In this document: positions 13,391 through 41,994 of the stretch, one piece after another
Layout: every line of letters starts with the position of its first letter
Numbering within the stretch: the stretch's first letter is position 1
Assembly (NCBI GenBank): GCA_014240285.1
Contig: JAAZXI010000007.1
Location: 1-45,476 of the forward strand
DNA length: 45,476 nucleotides
DNA from: Methanobacteriota archaeon
GTDB lineage: Archaea; Thermoplasmatota; Poseidoniia; Poseidoniales; Thalassarchaeaceae
Reading direction: 5' to 3'
The notes under the pieces: generated by a model
What the model saw: only the letters and a program-made list of their open reading frames with translations
What the model was told of the DNA's origin: nothing
Database searches by the model: none
Made by a program: the position numbers and the translations under genes

Positions 13391-16300
13391 TCAGAAGACC
13401 ATGTCCTCATCATCGAGATTCGAAAGCATGCTGGACTTCTCGGCGAAGCGGATCTTCGCCTCCTCCCTACGACTCCACATGACCACTGCGACCACTCCGA
13501 CTAAAGCGATCGTCGCGCCGAGGATGATGGTCGGCACGGTGTATTGGGCAACAATCTCAATTCCAACATCGAGGATCCCTAGATTCGAGCCCATCTTCTG
13601 AGAGACCTTCTTGATGTTGCTATTTATGGATTCATCAGTCTCGACGATTACGTTGTCCGGGTCCACGACGACCACGACATCGTGGTTTCCAGCTTCAACC
13701 ATGTAGAGCAGGGCTATCTGAGGTGGCTCCGAGCCATCGCATGGCTCTGGAAGACTTTGAGGATTGTCACAGGGCATTATCGCCTCAACAATCTGCCTGT
13801 AAACGATGTTGTCCTCATCGCATCCGTTCCTTTTGATGTCTGAAGGAGACTGGTCAACACACAGTATGATGTTAACATCAGTGGCGTGCGAGTTGCCAGC
13901 GTTGACAATCTCTACATTGACCGAAAGCATCTCGCCGACCTCTCCAGTGTAATCTTCAACGTTGACCGCGACAATCTTGAGATCGGGAGCCCTGAGTCTC
14001 AGTTCGATGATTTGCTCGTTGGTGTCGCAGTTGGGGCGGTAGTTGTCCGGCAAACCGTCTTTGTTCGCGTCGAGGGTGCAGGAGTCGTCCCATACAGCGG
14101 TCTCATCGTGATCACCGCCTGCTTCCGAGGAGCCAAAGTCTGAGAAGACCTTGATTCCAATCTCTCGGTTGGTCAGTTTAGCAGTCGGTTCAATCTGGAT
14201 TATTACGACAATTTGTAAAGTCGAATAGGCTTCCATCACCGGCATAGTGATTGCATTGGTACGGGCTGATAGGTAGCAGCCTTCTGGGGGATTATCGCCC
14301 AGAATCTGAACGCTGCACGGCCTTTCAATTGGATACTCTGTGTCGAAGTCTTCGAGCAATGCGTAGCTGATAACCCAATTGTCTAGCAGGGGTCCCATCG
14401 AAGGGGACGTTTGCCACGAATATGGATCATCGCGGTCGTAGAGGGTGTAGTTGTGCAAGGTCGGCTGGTCGTTGACATTGCCGAAGTTAGTGATATTCAT
14501 GGTAAATCGTACAATCCTGCCAGGGGCTGTGGTCTTGATTCGGCTCTCAACCATAGGATCAACCTCTATCCGCATGTCATGGAACTCTACTATCTCGATC
14601 TGCAACTGGATGGTATCCCTCAGTTTGGTGCCCTCGTAGGTCTCCTCACTGAGCACATGTAGAGTCACGGTGTATTGGCCGGCGAGGGCCATCTCGGGTA
14701 TATTGAGTATGATCGGAACGGTCTGCGACTCATCGCGATCCAACTCTTGGAAAAGCATCCTAGGAATTTCTATATCCCAAACTTGAGAATTGCCAAATGA
14801 GTCGGTTATTGAATTCACAATGATGTTGTATCTATCAGCCCCGTTGCCGATATTGTCTACAGTAGTGTCCAACTGGTATATCTGGCTTGGATATAATGAC
14901 AATATGGTCTCCGGAACACTTGCATCCAAATTGTACTCCTGAATAACATTGGTAAGGAGGACAACCGAATCTCTAACCCTTGGTGTTCCCTCTAAGTGTG
15001 CTTTCACAGAAACAGAATCGCCGAGACCTGCCGTGGCATTGTATGGAGCACACATGATAGCAGTGACTGTGGAAGGAGTATCGATAATAGACCAATAACG
15101 GGGGGCACTATCAGGAATGCCGTTTCCTCCTGGGGCTTGTGAGAAGTCAAGGTCTACTGTCCAATGGTCGAATCTCCAAGTCTGTTCGGAAATCTCAGGA
15201 GGTCTCTCCTCGGGTCCTCCAGGTGTGGTGAAAATGATGTGTCCTGGGGTGAAGTGTTTGGTCACATCTATATCGAATTCTGCACAGTCCCCGGGTAACA
15301 CATACTGAGTCGTGTCGCCCATCTGGAAAACTATGTTTCCGGTGCTCTTGATAGAGACGTTAATCCAGAGCTCAAGGACATCGAAGGTACCTTGCTCAAT
15401 TGAGAGCACGGGCTCCCCAGTGGACCAGCCTTTCAGATAGATAACAAAAGTCCCTGGGTCCTGTGAAGTAGGGACTGAAACCTGTAGATTCCTAGTAACT
15501 GACTGCCCTGGATCCAGCGATAAAGAGAGGGGGAATGTCAGGCCCCAACCGAAAGGTAGGGCCCATTCGACTTGTCCCTCTAGAGTAGACGGATCGTAGA
15601 ACGCGTACGAATCATAGACGTTGCCAGTATTAGTTACTGTAATGGAGAAGAACGCTGATTCTCCTTGTTCGACGTCGACTTGGTAGTGACTTGTGTCGAG
15701 GTCTATCCCATGTACAACATCCATCAGTGTCAGCGTGATTAAGTTGTCATTGATGGCTGGATCTTTGTGAGAAACTGCGGCAACTGTTATTGTAGCTAAT
15801 TCATCCGAATGGGCTTGATATATCGTAGGTGCGCGGACGCGCATGTACAAATGAGCAAAATCTCCCCCACGCAGGAATACTGGAGTGGAGTCGAAAATAG
15901 GTGTGTGGTTGGTTGCGAAAAACAACGTGGCTGTCCAATTATTCGGGACTCCTTGCAACGTAACTGTGAAGGTATCGGATACGAGATTGACTGGGCCAGG
16001 AGTCGGGTTAGAGATGGTCATGTTGAACAAAGTCTGTTCACCGGGCTCAATGGTGTGATAGTAAGTCTCAGTCTCTGCAAAAGAAACGTCAACAAGACCG
16101 GTGAGTACATGCACATAGCAAAGAGTGTACGTGCCCCCGTTACTCTGGTCATTGCACTTGTTGGTGTCAGACCAAGCTAGGTGCGCCCCGCTGCCCATAT
16201 CATTCACGAATGCTGGTGGCTGACCGAGATCAGGGGCGGCTGGTGAATTAGGACCCAGTTTATCTGATTGCCACTCAGTCACGGACACGACCTCCCATGG

Positions 16301-18508
16301 GTCAAATATACCTAAAGCTAGAGAATTGAGTGGAAACCCTTCCGGATAGTCGTCATTTGTATTGTTTAGCTTTGCATAGACTATGGATTCACCTTGGCTT
16401 TCATTAGAATTTTCCAGCCACGCAAAGTGAACATTGTCGAAAGAGTCCGTGATAATGCTGGGCATATGTGAGTTGGCCCCATAAGGACGGCCGGTCGGAA
16501 TTCCATCGACACCTTCAACATTGGATATAGCGGAGTCGACAATCTGTTTGATTCCGTACGAAGGGAGGCCATCTGGTGCCCCATCCCAGTCACCAGCACC
16601 CCGGAGTCGCAAACGGGTGTAGTAGATTTCATAGTTGACATTCATGTCAAAACCATATGCTCGTCCATCCATCCAAGCTAAGTGGGTGTTGCCCGAATTG
16701 TCCACTGAAATAGCAGGGTGTAAACTGTAAGCGTCATTGAGTGTTATTCTAGTGTCGTTGACTACAACAAGATGGCCATAACCCAATCCATCCAAAGAAG
16801 GGCCTAAATCTTCAACGTATGAGTTTCCTTGAATCTTTGTTCCCGGGTCTCCCTTCGACCAACTAGGGGGCTGGTTATCCAAAAGGGAGAGGGGGTCGAG
16901 GATGGTCATGAATATCTCACGAGAGTTGTTGGTTGAAAGGTAAATCATCGCCTCAACCATCAACTGCAATTCAGCCGAACTAGATGCAGAGTTTGGGAAG
17001 CTGTACATCTGCCCCTCTGCATCTGTGAGGCTAGTGTTTGTGCCGGGGCATGACCTTGTGTTCAGGCTGACGAACCCATTCGGGCATTGGGCTAGGTCCA
17101 TCATATGAGATCCTACTTCGGTGTCGCCGGATCCGAAACCCGCTGCAAGGAGGGGGACTGGAATGATACCAGCTCGGACGCATGCATCGTGGGCCTCGTT
17201 GATGCTTTGGATATCATCTGACTGCTGGTTGGGAGTCCCGCCGTACGGTCCTTCATCAGAGACTGGAATTACAATCTTGGTCGCGTTAGGATTCCAGCGA
17301 TGGTCTAATTGGGTTGGGGGATTTCCAGGAACGTTTCCTGTTATATCCTTCCATGAAAGGCACGCCCAAGTGGATCCGGGACCCCAAAACTCGCTGTAGT
17401 ACCCACCGTCCTGTGGCAAGTTGACCGCGCCGTTGTTGTAGACCACCTCGGTGAGTTCCCTCAGACCGCCAGAATCATCACCAGGGACCAAGCCAAGAGG
17501 GGTTGAGCGTGGACCTTGGCTGCCGGATCCTCCGGTCTGATAAGCTGCGGCACAGTTGCCACTGGTGGCCGCGCTCGGCCAATTACCACTGAGTGCATAT
17601 AGCGTCTCATAGACGGTCATGTTAGCGGTAAGAAGCATTGGCTTGAGGCCTTCGAAGTAGCCGCCGCTAGCGAAATTGCCACCGTAGAAGACCACACACA
17701 TATCTGCCCACTCAGTGTTCATAGAACCGGAAGTGTCGATTGGGGCGACTATCTCGACCTTGCCGCCTCTGGTATCATCCCAAACAATCTGCACAAAGTC
17801 ATCGGCGTCGACGGCAATATCGGGATGTCCCTTGTGACCGATAATAGGAGTTAGTAGGGTCTCACCTACAGCGCGTATGGCGTCACGTGACAGTACATCG
17901 GGCTCTATCATCGAGTAGTAGATTTGGGGCTGTTGGTAGAACTTGTTCAAAGGTTCAAAAGAGTCCTCCCAGACTATGTGTGCGTTGTTCTGCGAGTCGG
18001 TTGCGATTGCTGGCCAGTCGCGATTCTGTGAGTGAACCGAGACCTCGTAGTCGTTGATGATTGAGATTACTTCGTCGGATGCTGAGTCACCGTCTTGGTC
18101 ATCTTGAGATGGATCAATCATCGTGTAAAGAATAGTCCATTGGGACGATTTATCCGCCCAGGTGATATGCGCATTATCATCTCCGTCGATAATTATGTCC
18201 GGGTGCCAAGCACGGTGAGCTCCGGGGTTGGATATCTGTGTCTCGGCAATCAGAACCTCCCCTCTCGGATCGTGCATCTGGTACCAGAGGTGCTGGGTGT
18301 TGCGACTCCAGACGAAGTGCACGTTGCCCATCGAATCGGCATCTGCAGCCACCATCTTGTCGCTAGCTGAGCCCCCATTTACAATCTGAATCGCGTCAGT
18401 CAAAACCACTTCACTAGCCTCGGCCTGCGGGAATTCGATTACCGCGAAAGTACTCATCATCATCAGAAGAACCATTGTTACGCTGTTTCTCATCTTTGCA
18501 GTTTCCAT
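13391..18508 (-). CDS. Giant surface protein: propeller with inserted VWA domain, Ig-like repeats and C-terminal anchor
   Basis: 1705 residues with a signal peptide (about 7-31, ending in A-E-A). A recurring blade motif, D-x-x-N-x-H-x-x-W-x-D, occurs at about residues 62, 112, 175, 238, 606, 690 and 770, which makes seven copies. Between copies 4 and 5 lies a von Willebrand A-like domain with MIDAS DTSGSM at 258-263, TKIVIPVSDEGP, and a C-terminal segment ending near 560. After about 790 come several Ig-like or NEW3-type beta domains (for example VEQGESAFFSITVTNTGN) and a CARDB-like domain near 1505 (GEMLSVNVEIVNAGN). A single transmembrane helix at about 1660-1680 and a short charged tail finish the protein. 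It is expected to be anchored outside the cell and may bind metal-dependent ligands. GGAGGG precedes the ATG. The central part looks more AT-rich than its neighbours. Confidence 0.85.
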   Translation of the reverse strand: METAKMRNSVTMVLLMMMSTFAVIEFPQAEASEVVLTDAIQIVNGGSASDKMVAADADSMGNVHFVWSRNTQHLWYQMHDPRGEVLIAETQISNPGAHRAWHPDIIIDGDDNAHITWADKSSQWTILYTMIDPSQDDQDGDSASDEVISIINDYEVSVHSQNRDWPAIATDSQNNAHIVWEDSFEPLNKFYQQPQIYYSMIEPDVLSRDAIRAVGETLLTPIIGHKGHPDIAVDADDFVQIVWDDTRGGKVEIVAPIDTSGSMNTEWADMCVVFYGGNFASGGYFEGLKPMLLTANMTVYETLYALSGNWPSAATSGNCAAAYQTGGSGSQGPRSTPLGLVPGDDSGGLRELTEVVYNNGAVNLPQDGGYYSEFWGPGSTWACLSWKDITGNVPGNPPTQLDHRWNPNATKIVIPVSDEGPYGGTPNQQSDDIQSINEAHDACVRAGIIPVPLLAAGFGSGDTEVGSHMMDLAQCPNGFVSLNTRSCPGTNTSLTDAEGQMYSFPNSASSSAELQLMVEAMIYLSTNNSREIFMTILDPLSLLDNQPPSWSKGDPGTKIQGNSYVEDLGPSLDGLGYGHLVVVNDTRITLNDAYSLHPAISVDNSGNTHLAWMDGRAYGFDMNVNYEIYYTRLRLRGAGDWDGAPDGLPSYGIKQIVDSAISNVEGVDGIPTGRPYGANSHMPSIITDSFDNVHFAWLENSNESQGESIVYAKLNNTNDDYPEGFPLNSLALGIFDPWEVVSVTEWQSDKLGPNSPAAPDLGQPPAFVNDMGSGAHLAWSDTNKCNDQSNGGTYTLCYVHVLTGLVDVSFAETETYYHTIEPGEQTLFNMTISNPTPGPVNLVSDTFTVTLQGVPNNWTATLFFATNHTPIFDSTPVFLRGGDFAHLYMRVRAPTIYQAHSDELATITVAAVSHKDPAINDNLITLTLMDVVHGIDLDTSHYQVDVEQGESAFFSITVTNTGNVYDSYAFYDPSTLEGQVEWALPFGWGLTFPLSLSLDPGQSVTRNLQVSVPTSQDPGTFVIYLKGWSTGEPVLSIEQGTFDVLELWINVSIKSTGNIVFQMGDTTQYVLPGDCAEFDIDVTKHFTPGHIIFTTPGGPEERPPEISEQTWRFDHWTVDLDFSQAPGGNGIPDSAPRYWSIIDTPSTVTAIMCAPYNATAGLGDSVSVKAHLEGTPRVRDSVVLLTNVIQEYNLDASVPETILSLYPSQIYQLDTTVDNIGNGADRYNIIVNSITDSFGNSQVWDIEIPRMLFQELDRDESQTVPIILNIPEMALAGQYTVTLHVLSEETYEGTKLRDTIQLQIEIVEFHDMRIEVDPMVESRIKTTAPGRIVRFTMNITNFGNVNDQPTLHNYTLYDRDDPYSWQTSPSMGPLLDNWVISYALLEDFDTEYPIERPCSVQILGDNPPEGCYLSARTNAITMPVMEAYSTLQIVVIIQIEPTAKLTNREIGIKVFSDFGSSEAGGDHDETAVWDDSCTLDANKDGLPDNYRPNCDTNEQIIELRLRAPDLKIVAVNVEDYTGEVGEMLSVNVEIVNAGNSHATDVNIILCVDQSPSDIKRNGCDEDNIVYRQIVEAIMPCDNPQSLPEPCDGSEPPQIALLYMVEAGNHDVVVVVDPDNVIVETDESINSNIKKVSQKMGSNLGILDVGIEIVAQYTVPTIILGATIALVGVVAVVMWSRREEAKIRFAEKSSMLSNLDDEDMVF

Positions 18509-18625: not shown

Positions 18626-19258
18626 TCATGCCCATTCTGAAGGGTCGAAGTCGCGACCGAAACTGCCTGTCTCATCAGTGTCTATCTCACTCACCTCTGA
18701 ATGCACTTGAGGCTGATTGCTCCTACTCTGAGCCTTCTTGGAGATCCAGTCGTCAACCGGCCCGGGCTTGCCGACACCGGGCCCGTAAGCGAACTTAATC
18801 TTGTGAATCAAAGCGAGCTTGGTGAGCCAAAGATGGCGCATTGTGTGCATGAACTCGTTCTGTGTCAGGCCGTCGAACCAAATCGGACGAGAGAGGTTGA
18901 ATGCCTGCAGCGGACCGGGTACCCCATTCTGCTTCTTGCCCACATGAAGGACCCAGTCGAGGTCCGCCTGAGTGAGGTGTATCCTAGTATCGTGAAGCCA
19001 TCGCTCCCAATCCCCAGACTCTCCTCTGGAATGTTCGGTCATCTCGTTCTGCTGACCGTCGTCGACACGGGTTACTGAGTAAATCAGGATGAGGTCGCGG
19101 TTCTTCGGGATAACGACGTTGAACACATGGCCCTGCTTGGTCGGGGGGTAACGGACGTGAAGGTGTAGCATGGCCTGCTGGTCAACAACATCTCGGGCTT
19201 CGAGGCGCTCGCTCTGCAGCCACTCTCGCACCCTGTCGGCGGCCTCGCGGGAGTTCAT
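18626..19258 (-). CDS. Conserved hypothetical protein, possible DUF2299 relative
   Basis: 210 residues, soluble. The N-terminal half (REAADRVREWLQSE, then LHVRYPP, then NVVIPKNRDLILIYSVTRV) resembles archaeal DUF2299 proteins in pattern, but I cannot confirm this without a profile search. The C-terminal 50 residues are polar and low in complexity (QSRSNQPQVHSEVSEIDTDE) and probably disordered. It is the last gene of the minus-strand operon, 21 bases after the acyltransferase gene, followed by the GC hairpin. The function is unknown. Confidence 0.7.
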   Translation of the reverse strand: MNSREAADRVREWLQSERLEARDVVDQQAMLHLHVRYPPTKQGHVFNVVIPKNRDLILIYSVTRVDDGQQNEMTEHSRGESGDWERWLHDTRIHLTQADLDWVLHVGKKQNGVPGPLQAFNLSRPIWFDGLTQNEFMHTMRHLWLTKLALIHKIKFAYGPGVGKPGPVDDWISKKAQSRSNQPQVHSEVSEIDTDETGSFGRDFDPSEWA

Positions 19259-19279: not shown

Positions 19280-20803
19280 CTATTTGAGAACGCCGAGTCG
19301 GGGAACCAGTTGGCCCACCAACTCCTCCAAGCGACTGCCGGCTGCTGAGGAAGCCAGTCTCCTTCTTCTTCGAGAGTCACCGAAATCGGTCCACATATCA
19401 TAGCCCCAGAGGAAAACTAGGTTGGATAAATGGATGACTAGGAAGAATGCTGCGAGATAGAGCGAGAGCAGGAAGGTCGCACCGAATAGAGAATAGAGGA
19501 ATGCGAGGGAGATTAGTGGCCAGATGACTAGGGGAGAGAGAATTGCAGCAATCATGTGGTGAGTCGTCCTAGCGTCGACCCCCTCGTCCGATTGTTCGCC
19601 CGCGTACCACCCTACGAACGCTTGCAGGCCGGTCGATGGGATGGTGATGGGGGCGGCGAGGAGCATTACCAGAACCCCTAGTGCGCCTTCGATCAGTCTG
19701 GAATCTCTCTTGATTCTCCCTGTTACATCCAACGTTCGGCCATCCAGATTGCTCGATTGTAGTATGTCTGCGGCCTCCCTGGCGTCCTCGATGAGAGGAT
19801 CGGAGCCCCCGATAAGAGTGAGGCGTTCCCTGATGTCCCGGGCGGCGAGAACCTCCTGCTTCAGAGAACTGAGGGGAGTGGTGGAGTAATTCGCCCTCAG
19901 GTGACCCAGTAGGTGCCATGCCCTGTAGGTCTCCCAGTCTGGAGCCTCGGGGGTCATGCGGGTCAGGTTTTCATACAATTCGTCGCGCAGAGGGATGACT
20001 TGCTCTGCCGGGGGCTCTAACCACTCTCCCCCCGCGAGAGCGGCGTGATGTTGGGCGTCATTGAGCAGTGGTATGGCAATTGGCTCGCCGAACTCGACGA
20101 AGACGTCAGTGCGAAACCAGTAATGGCATCTGAAATGCAGTCCTACAGGCTGAATCACTGGCTGAGGTAGTCCCCTCTCATGTGCGATGCTGGCGGCGTT
20201 GAGGGTGAACCGGAGGGCCCCTGTCCTGAGAGCGTGCAGCTTGGTGTCCTGGTGCGACTTGCCCTCGGGCATCACTATCGCCGCGTGACCCGATGCTATG
20301 CAGTTAGCCATGGTCAGCATGCTCCTTTTGTTAATTTTCTTCGCGAACCCGGGGTCACCTATCCCCCTCTCCAGTTCGGCTTTCCTGATTACCGGCTGTG
20401 AACCAATGCGGCGAGTAAGCCAGCCTATTACAGGCATGGTCATGATGTCGTGCCTGCCGATGGCGATGATGCGCCTATCCTGTGATTTCATGATAGCCAA
20501 TGGATCGATGAGGCCATTGATGTGCGTGGAAGCGTACACAGAGCCGCCGTCCACCATAGGAGGTTTGTCCATCTCCGAGTTCCTGATGATGTAAGACCAG
20601 GCTATGTCGATGACTCGCCGGATGACCTCCCAGAATGGGCGGCTTCCAGGGTGTTTCCCACTGTGATCCCAAGGCAGACGCTCTAATTTCTTGACATTGA
20701 CCCGAGTAGCACTGCTCGACAGTCTTGGGAGCACGTCGGGCGCGTTTTCGGAATCAGACACGATACACGCACAGGGTTGGTGGTTGAGAACGCACCGGGT
20801 CAC
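19280..20803 (-). CDS. PlsC-family glycerol-phosphate acyltransferase with C-terminal membrane helices
   Basis: 507 residues. The acyltransferase core spans about 85-240, with a catalytic THINGLIDP block (H94 and D100, five residues apart rather than the PlsC four) and MPEGKSHQDTKL at 178-189. This spacing and the PEG-x-SH block resemble the SCT1/GAT1-type glycerol-3-phosphate acyltransferases more than bacterial PlsC. Several membrane helices follow between about 365 and 470. It would transfer fatty acyl groups to a glycerol-phosphate acceptor at the membrane. Bacterial-type acyltransferases have been reported in Marine Group II archaea. The GTG start overlaps the stop of the HIT gene (GTGA), indicating coupling. 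The native acyl donor is unknown. Confidence 0.82.
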   Translation of the reverse strand: MTRCVLNHQPCACIVSDSENAPDVLPRLSSSATRVNVKKLERLPWDHSGKHPGSRPFWEVIRRVIDIAWSYIIRNSEMDKPPMVDGGSVYASTHINGLIDPLAIMKSQDRRIIAIGRHDIMTMPVIGWLTRRIGSQPVIRKAELERGIGDPGFAKKINKRSMLTMANCIASGHAAIVMPEGKSHQDTKLHALRTGALRFTLNAASIAHERGLPQPVIQPVGLHFRCHYWFRTDVFVEFGEPIAIPLLNDAQHHAALAGGEWLEPPAEQVIPLRDELYENLTRMTPEAPDWETYRAWHLLGHLRANYSTTPLSSLKQEVLAARDIRERLTLIGGSDPLIEDAREAADILQSSNLDGRTLDVTGRIKRDSRLIEGALGVLVMLLAAPITIPSTGLQAFVGWYAGEQSDEGVDARTTHHMIAAILSPLVIWPLISLAFLYSLFGATFLLSLYLAAFFLVIHLSNLVFLWGYDMWTDFGDSRRRRRLASSAAGSRLEELVGQLVPRLGVLK

Positions 20804-40467: not shown

Positions 40468-41994
40468 GTGACCAGAGTAGCTCAGCTACTAGTGCTGCTG
40501 ATGTTGAGTTCTTCAATCAGTGGTTGCCTGTGGTGGGGGGATGAAGAGGTCGTCGAAGAGGAAACAGGTCCGTTCGATTTCGATCAGGATGTACCAATCA
40601 CGACTTGGTACCATTATCCTGGAACGGTACCGGAACCATGGGCTGTTGATGCTACCGACTCTACCGCGGTATCCGCGGCAAACATCACCGCAAACCTGAG
40701 TGGGAACAGTACCCCTTACTTCACCAACGCTACCTACTATGGCACTGGGTTCGACACCTTCGAGCCGACCATCGGAATCACCTCCTCCGGAGCCATCTTT
40801 TTCACCAACTACAACGGACTCGGTGATGGTACTCACATCATCCGCTCTCGGGACCAGGGGCAGACCTGGGAGGATGTAGGGCCGTTCGGGACTGTGGATG
40901 AGGACTCTGGGCAGACTCCCAACTCCAACGACCCTTACATCTACGTCGACAAATTCACGGACAGGCTGGTTAAGTTCGACATGCACGCGCTTGCGGCAAT
41001 GTTCGTTGAATACTCTGACAATGACGGTGACTCATGGAGCGCCCCTTTTCCGGTAGAGGGTTACTATGTGACTCAAGATCACCAAAGTATAGCCTCGATG
41101 CCTCCTCCTCCTGGTGTAACGGCGTTTCACGAGGTGATTTACGTATACTGTATCAACACCGGCTCACCAGCCGCTGGAGCGCAATGCTCGCGCTCGCTCA
41201 ATGGGGGGTTGTCATGGGACGTTCAAAGAATTGGGTTCCCCAGTAGTAGCTTCCCGCAGTGCTCAGGGTTGCACGGCCATGTGGCGGGGGGAATTGACGG
41301 AGCTGTCTACAGAGGCAATCCCTCGTGCGGGGGTCCAGCAGTCTATCGCTCTCTAGATGGAGGCTATACTTGGACGGAGCATACCATAACCACAGAAGTA
41401 GGGATGCAGCAGGGTTGGCACTCGCACGAGGTCGCTACGGCAGTGGATGATGGGGGCAATGTCCACGCCACTTGGATCAGTAATGACCAGTTGCCATGGT
41501 ACGCTTACTCGCGGGACCAAGGCAACACCTGGAGTGAACCGATGATGGTAGCAGCCCCGGGCGTAAGAGAAACCGGTTTCCCGACAATCTTTGCAGGAGC
41601 AGAGGGGCGCGTAGTGGTTGGTTACATCGGCGAGGTAAACGACGTGGGGGATAACAACTCAACCTCTGGTGGAGTCGGTTGGGGCGGCTACATGGCCATC
41701 ATGACAGATGCCTTCTCTGAGAACCCACTCATCACCACTGTAGTTGTGAACCAACCGGATGATCCGCTGGACATCACATCTGATTGTGGTAATGTGCGCT
41801 GTGGAGGGTTCGGAGACTTCATCGATGTCGAGATCGATGATGAAGGGCGTCCTTGGATCGCTCTCGCACACAACGCCGCTGGGTTTGAGGAGGCAATCAT
41901 AGGCACGCTCACCGAAGGGCCGGCGCTGTATGGCGACCTCGCGTACCTTCCGGCGCTCCCGCCTGGTGGCAATACAACCCTGTTGATGGGGTGA
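40468..41994 (+). CDS. Secreted lipoprotein with Asp-box (BNR/sialidase-type) propeller, copy 1
   Basis: 508 residues from a GTG start preceded by GGAG. The signal peptide ends in lipobox ISGC (C20). Five Asp-boxes are visible: SRDQGQTW, SDNDGDSW, SLNGGLSW, SLDGGYTW and SRDQGNTW, typical of sialidase/BNR-type propellers. The conserved C-terminal core DCG-x-x-RCGGFGDF then DEGRPW and ALAHN may close the propeller. Candidate role is binding or cutting extracellular polysaccharides, but no catalytic residues for sialidase could be identified. It is a tandem paralogue of the gene at 42039. Confidence 0.85.
   Translation: MTRVAQLLVLLMLSSSISGCLWWGDEEVVEEETGPFDFDQDVPITTWYHYPGTVPEPWAVDATDSTAVSAANITANLSGNSTPYFTNATYYGTGFDTFEPTIGITSSGAIFFTNYNGLGDGTHIIRSRDQGQTWEDVGPFGTVDEDSGQTPNSNDPYIYVDKFTDRLVKFDMHALAAMFVEYSDNDGDSWSAPFPVEGYYVTQDHQSIASMPPPPGVTAFHEVIYVYCINTGSPAAGAQCSRSLNGGLSWDVQRIGFPSSSFPQCSGLHGHVAGGIDGAVYRGNPSCGGPAVYRSLDGGYTWTEHTITTEVGMQQGWHSHEVATAVDDGGNVHATWISNDQLPWYAYSRDQGNTWSEPMMVAAPGVRETGFPTIFAGAEGRVVVGYIGEVNDVGDNNSTSGGVGWGGYMAIMTDAFSENPLITTVVVNQPDDPLDITSDCGNVRCGGFGDFIDVEIDDEGRPWIALAHNAAGFEEAIIGTLTEGPALYGDLAYLPALPPGGNTTLLMG

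Follow-up and report, generated by a model that had tools for sequence, protein, structure and literature searches.

In those integrin alpha subunits that possess an alpha-I domain, a von Willebrand A (VWA) domain, the seven-bladed propeller bears it between blades 2 and 3 (PMC12422189, PMC3192720). Passages of two papers report alpha-I domains from chordates only, with none before the urochordates, and describe the separate domains from prokaryotes (PMC4237329, PMC3192720). The VWA-in-propeller head has hitherto been regarded as a chordate innovation within the integrins. The FG-GAP propellers of integrin type described from bacteria (Chouhan et al. 2011, PMC3192720) are, like the archaeal propeller described here, seven-bladed and prokaryotic, but they were reported with no transmembrane helix and their blade motif is unlike that of our receptor. 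A VWA domain nested in a prokaryotic propeller was not found in our literature search, in which subscription journals were little covered. The earlier note on this DNA, which knew of no described protein with such a nesting, had overlooked the alpha-I integrins; what survives of its statement is narrower, as the layout itself was already known, while the insertion inside blade 4 and the occurrence in a prokaryote appear to be new in the literature searched.

Here, the window, meaning the whole stretch of DNA analysed (45,476 nucleotides), comes from the chromosome of a Marine Group II archaeon of the order Ca. Poseidoniales, to which Ca. Thalassarchaeum / Thalassarchaeaceae provide the closest named genomes. 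Neighbours of the gene described below include ordinary core genes, encoding topoisomerase VI A and B, aconitase, ribonucleotide reductase and TFIIB. One open reading frame on the minus strand (ATG at 18508, stop at 13391) encodes 1705 aa, arranged from N- to C-terminus as a signal peptide, a propeller with a VWA domain, an Ig-like stalk, one transmembrane helix and a short cytoplasmic tail. We consider it probable that the product is a type I membrane receptor or adhesin of Ca. Poseidoniales, with a closed HIVW-type seven-bladed propeller bearing the VWA in blade 4, and that it acts in a metal-dependent manner; our confidence is high for its architecture and moderate for its function. Its features and those of the adjoining genes are:

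13391..18508, minus strand: whole gene of the 1705 aa surface protein (open reading frame and orthologues)
18413..18508, minus strand: putative Sec-type signal peptide, residues 1-32 (read from the sequence)
18260..18412, minus strand: repeat unit 1, residues 33-83 (HMM test and AlphaFold2)
18110..18259, minus strand: repeat unit 2, residues 84-133 (HMM test and AlphaFold2)
17897..18073, minus strand: repeat unit 3, residues 146-204 (HMM test and AlphaFold2)
17762..17881, minus strand: first part of repeat unit 4 (strands D, A, B), residues 210-249 (HMM and AlphaFold2)
16922..17761, minus strand: VWA domain inside blade 4, residues 250-529 (fold model and conservation)
17720..17737, minus strand: MIDAS motif 1, DTSGSM, residues 258-263 (conservation)
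17372..17374, minus strand: candidate MIDAS motif 2, S/T379 in WGPG[ST] (alignment only)
17255..17257, minus strand: MIDAS motif 3, D418 in PVSDE (conservation)
16892..16921, minus strand: blade 4 strand C, which follows the VWA, REIFMTILDP, residues 530-539 (join scan and AlphaFold2 strand)
16601..16774, minus strand: outer strand of blade 4 and repeat unit 5, residues 579-636 (HMM and AlphaFold2)
16358..16558, minus strand: repeat unit 6, residues 651-717 (HMM test and AlphaFold2)
16097..16297, minus strand: repeat unit 7, residues 738-804 (HMM test and AlphaFold2)
13553..16096, minus strand: Ig-like or beta-sandwich stalk, residues 805-1652 (NEW3/NPCBM-associated and CARDB matches)
13475..13552, minus strand: transmembrane helix, residues ~1653-1678 (hydropathy maximum 2.52)
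13394..13474, minus strand: cytoplasmic tail, residues 1679-1705, RRxEAxxRxAExSSL (conserved motif)
18626..19258, minus strand: DUF2299 gene, upstream of the receptor gene on the same strand (its direct neighbour in both order families)
19280..20803, minus strand: acyltransferase gene, upstream of the receptor gene (usually syntenic too)

Seven motifs of the type D-x-x...-H-x-x-W start at residues 56, 108, 171 and 234 and, after a long gap, at 603, 688 and 770. In a leave-one-out HMM test, each unit was compared with a profile of the other six over 49 homologues and with about 1000 shuffles, the units being scored in the order outer strand D, A, B, C and unit 4 without its VWA. Units 1 to 7 reached 20.7, 43.5, 35.0, 29.4, 36.2, 27.6 and 10.5 bits, unit 7 being the lowest; the shuffle maxima lay between 6.3 and 11.4 bits, and each of the seven units exceeded its own maximum. 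AlphaFold2 modelling of residues 33-940 with 49 sequences, which takes in only the first domain of the stalk, gave a pLDDT of 84.4 and a pTM of 0.78 and revealed a four-stranded blade register both before and after the VWA fold, with no assignment for strand D of blade 6. The N-terminal strand EVVLTDAIQI of unit 1 resembles the outer strands of other units, e.g., HLVVVNDTRIT, and would form the outer (fourth) strand of blade 7, a velcro closure to which both the sequence and the model point.

Comparison of the head with known structures via Foldseek showed that seven-bladed lectins of about 340 residues, the Photorhabdus PHL/PLL lectins, align over about 750 columns of the model and therefore span the VWA insertion. 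The better target TM-scores were 0.58-0.61 for 5mxf, 6rgg and 5mxe and 0.62 for the glycoside hydrolase 5mvh. These lectins have no VWA, stalk or membrane anchor and displayed no similarity in the PDB sequence searches, which yielded nothing useful for either the single protein or the head profile; a BFVD search gave generic propeller matches only. As four units precede the VWA and three follow it, neither set could, we infer, close a ring of its own, and a single closed seven-bladed ring is well supported by the strand register of the model together with the Foldseek matches. This is in line with the earlier note, which had counted seven motifs, four and three around a gap, and had proposed one closed propeller.

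The top matches of the head include bacterial sialidases in addition to the PHL/PLL lectins, with moderate TM-scores (0.6), and passages on Marine Group II describe these archaea as degrading high-molecular-weight organic matter (PMC6336850). Both would suit a protein that captures substrates or polymers and feeds them to extracellular hydrolases, with a sialidase- or lectin-like, glycan-binding propeller and the VWA as a secondary site. We regard such a capture role as rather improbable, as no hydrolase family match was found on the protein and the syntenic block around the gene holds no adjacent hydrolase or transporter genes.

The point at which the VWA enters the ring can be placed closely. 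Strand B of blade 4, VQIVWDD (239-245), is followed by TRGG (246-249) and then directly by VWA strand 1 (250-257), VEIVAPIDTSGSM. At the other end, the last VWA helix leads through TNNS into REIFMTILDP, similar in appearance to the third strand in the other blades (QIYYSMIEP, TILYTMIDP, EIYYTRL). In a join scan, residue 249 was joined to each residue from 250 to 550 (301 junctions, a range that stops short of residue 579, past which junctions capture blade 5) and the products were scored with the profile of the other blades. The scan peaked at 522-529 with 32.1 bits, compared with a median of 24.4 (sd 1.4), 22.9 for the unjoined sequence and 28.3 for the best junction outside 515-535. The strands of the AlphaFold2 model run 226-233, 239-245, then the VWA, 530-537 and 581-587, followed by blades 5-7. 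Since REIFMTILDP is the missing third strand and HLVVVNDTRIT the fourth, and both come after the VWA, the domain is, as judged from sequence and model, predicted to be inserted inside blade 4, in the B-C hairpin between strands B (239-245) and C (530-537).

That the VWA is an insertion on the propeller had been proposed before and stands; its earlier placement between blades 4 and 5 does not, for strands C and D of blade 4 come after it. A pure linker insertion between the two blades, as in integrin alpha-I, with blade 4 complete beforehand, would agree with the four motifs ahead of the VWA and the three behind. It is very unlikely, as merely the four residues of TRGG separate the blade 4 motif from VWA strand 1 and the third and fourth strands of this blade (REIFMTIL and LVVVNDTRIT) follow the domain.

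The DTSGSM motif that had been noticed in the gap as an intact MIDAS lies at residues 258-263 and is near-invariant. Among the 49 homologues, D258 is kept in 48, S260 in 49, S262 in 46 and D418 in 49. The second MIDAS loop, assigned from the alignment only, has S/T379 in 47/49 or T380, and is not a strict threonine. T336 was rejected as the MIDAS threonine because it sits in an extra segment that is missing from the VWAs of non-propeller proteins. Modelled alone, the VWA reached a pTM of 0.90, and its PDB matches via Foldseek were mostly VWA domains of integrin beta-I, PTMP1, integrin alpha-M, CMG2 and Rpn10; the E-values were weak, a single one falling below 0.001. Pfam VWA (PF00092) did not match the VWA sequence of this protein; it matched 8/38 family members, at best with 1.8e-5. 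Six cysteines of the VWA are invariant across the 49 homologues, which suggests that they form disulfides. MIDAS residues are altered in some paralogues with an identity of about 32% over the head, and metal binding may therefore not be universal.

The hydrophobic stretch after METAKMRNS, a cleavage-like site at PQAEAS and a hydropathy peak near residue 9 indicate a putative signal peptide. The stalk matched the NPCBM-associated and CARDB families and, weakly and below its cut-off, choice-of-anchor T, and a hydropathy peak of 2.52 at about residue 1658 marks the single transmembrane helix; Ig-like repeats ending in a membrane anchor had also been anticipated in the earlier reading. The tail of this protein reads WSRREEAKIRFAEKSSM. 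Its motif RRxEAxxRxAExSSL is kept across both families of the order, with R1680 invariant and E1690 and S1693 at a column identity of 0.91, and this conservation suggests that the tail makes a cytoplasmic contact.

Orthologues were found in 58 of the 60 near relatives searched. Of 146 genomes of the class, 122 have one; these all belong to the order families f1 and f2, and none to the sister family f3, which probably corresponds to Marine Group III. The best 80 loci in a scan of named genomes were mostly from Poseidoniales, and no relative was found on viral contigs. All 49 aligned homologues, from both Ca. Poseidoniales families and including paralogues (31-44% identity over the head), have the VWA at an unchanged position; the nesting and the conservation across the order are well supported. 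In one genome the receptor has a close second copy in tandem (G013:C363:7362-14205), and in another there is a second copy on a different contig (G012:C14, 59% identical). One orthologue (G007:C23:13647-16906) is broken by several stops and frame changes and is either a pseudogene or a product of assembly errors. In G028, a genome of that family with a completeness of 94%, no orthologue was found, only a weak match to the head profile.

Two paralogues carry an extra insertion inside the VWA (L078, residues ~555-821 of the open reading frame, and L083, ~545-700). The insert, about 150-270 aa long and apparently beta-rich, lies after the position equivalent to 507 and gives a triple nest of propeller, VWA and extra domain; Pfam returned nothing significant on it. 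In a genome of family f5 (L179:736-6564 and L185), the blade type of the receptor encloses a Peptidase_C13/caspase-like domain (DTCHSGG), which suggests that such propellers accept other nested domains as well.

The head and the layout as a whole invite comparison with the alpha-I integrins. Shared are the seven-bladed propeller head with a nested MIDAS VWA, a stalk of beta-sandwich or Ig-like domains, a single transmembrane helix and a short cytoplasmic tail; by propeller topology, the VWA insertions of both would presumably share one face. The differences are the insertion site (between blades 2 and 3 in integrins versus inside blade 4), the blades (calcium-binding FG-GAP versus HIVW-type), the tail (GFFKR-type versus RRxEAxxRxAExSSL), the assembly (heterodimers versus a probable single chain) and the hosts (chordates versus archaea). 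No FG-GAP or integrin alpha domain matched the protein up to E = 1, the stalk had NPCBM_assoc and CARDB matches in place of any match to an integrin thigh or calf family, and the GFFKR juxtamembrane motif was absent from the tail. In view of these differences (FG-GAP, blade and GFFKR), the integrin-like layout was most likely reached independently, by convergence.

Were the prokaryotic protein a true integrin alpha, inherited or transferred, this would account for integrin alphaE being the second-best PDB structure match of the head by E-value (4.1e-10 over 1044 columns) and for the alpha-M I domain being the sole PDB sequence match of the VWA profile, at a non-significant E of 0.95. The superposition of alphaE on the head is poor (TMq 0.23, rmsd 19.6), and membership of the integrin alpha family is extremely improbable, as neither FG-GAP nor integrin alpha matches were obtained, another blade and another hairpin hold the VWA, and the relatives of its two parts lie in archaeal proteins, those of the VWA without a propeller and those of the propeller without a VWA. 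The report of alpha-I from chordates only, in the passages cited (PMC4237329, PMC3192720), likewise argues against it.

Beyond the order, members of this VWA family turned up only in f5, another family of the phylum, and in the three f5 proteins read (L176, L177 and L178) the VWA sits outside a propeller. These Thermoplasmatota surface VWAs, located between Ig-like repeats (in L177, Big_7, Y_Y_Y and PKD matches support such neighbours), are homologous to that of the receptor (L176 and L177 30-34% identical) and share its DTSGSM, E-x-WG and SDE signatures; unlike it, they lie outside a propeller and have no extra segment around residues 320-370. Conversely, the HIVW ("RIVW"-like) propellers of archaeal and bacterial surface proteins (L181, L182) share the repeat type of the receptor, with no VWA in the relatives examined outside Poseidoniales, and the archaeal L181 has exactly seven motifs. 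As both parts exist separately in related archaea, the sequences favour the view that the nest was put together locally, in the Poseidoniales stem, rather than through any link to integrins. The archaeal head, with another position and another propeller family and spread across an order of very abundant surface-ocean archaea, suggests that evolution can reach the VWA-in-propeller solution repeatedly. With propellers lacking the VWA and VWAs outside propellers both still present in related archaea, the way in which a nested receptor is built from its parts is open to direct study.

Judged from its sequence and by analogy, the protein is most likely a cell-surface receptor for adhesion that depends on a divalent metal; its MIDAS and its layout lead us to infer metal binding, ligand binding and adhesion. 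The chain of Ig-like domains would lift the propeller-VWA head above the membrane, and the VWA would bind an acidic group of a ligand via a divalent cation at the MIDAS. VWA strand 1 comes straight from strand B of blade 4 and the last helix runs straight into strand C of that blade, so that a ligand-induced movement of this helix could be passed to the propeller, in a possible relay like that of integrins. Signalling onwards through helix, propeller, stalk and tail is speculative. The full proposal, that archaea independently evolved an integrin-alpha-like receptor for metal-dependent, signalling adhesion of Marine Group II, in which a MIDAS VWA inside a blade transmits helix movement via propeller and stalk to the tail, is accordingly put forward as tentative, and we would sooner expect it to fail than to hold. 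In passages of papers on Marine Group II, adhesion is discussed through archaella, thrombospondin and flotillin genes, and this protein is not mentioned there. The receptor is a candidate molecule for the attachment of uncultured Marine Group II cells to particles or to other cells.

Archaeal cell surfaces are protein-based, and the receptor is ubiquitous in the order, has a long Ig stalk and contains 14 N-glycosylation-type sequons. A passive structural component of a surface layer, which together with the capture role is the main alternative, could have all of these features; in it, the VWA and the propeller would both be rigid, calcium-stabilised blocks that touch adjacent copies, and no ligand would trigger a change. 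The protein matched no S-layer family, and the conserved tail and the near-complete conservation of the MIDAS suggest more than packing, which makes a passive role unlikely next to that of an adhesion receptor.

The receptor gene is flanked by the acyltransferase and DUF2299 genes and by a convergent ArsR-type HTH gene, and these three accompany it in both families at nearly all loci examined. Five f3 genomes, which have no receptor either, yielded no DUF2299 in a search run without a positive control, and the HTH gene is present in f3 genomes where DUF2299 was not found. No remnant of the receptor locus was detected in f3 via DUF2299, and the HTH gene there shares no neighbours with the locus. 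No candidate for an integrin-beta-type partner was noted among the annotated genes of the window; the DUF2299 product is a possible partner or chaperone of the receptor. A second propeller-like (BNR) protein is encoded at 40468-41994 of the window and shows a weak match to the profile of the receptor head.
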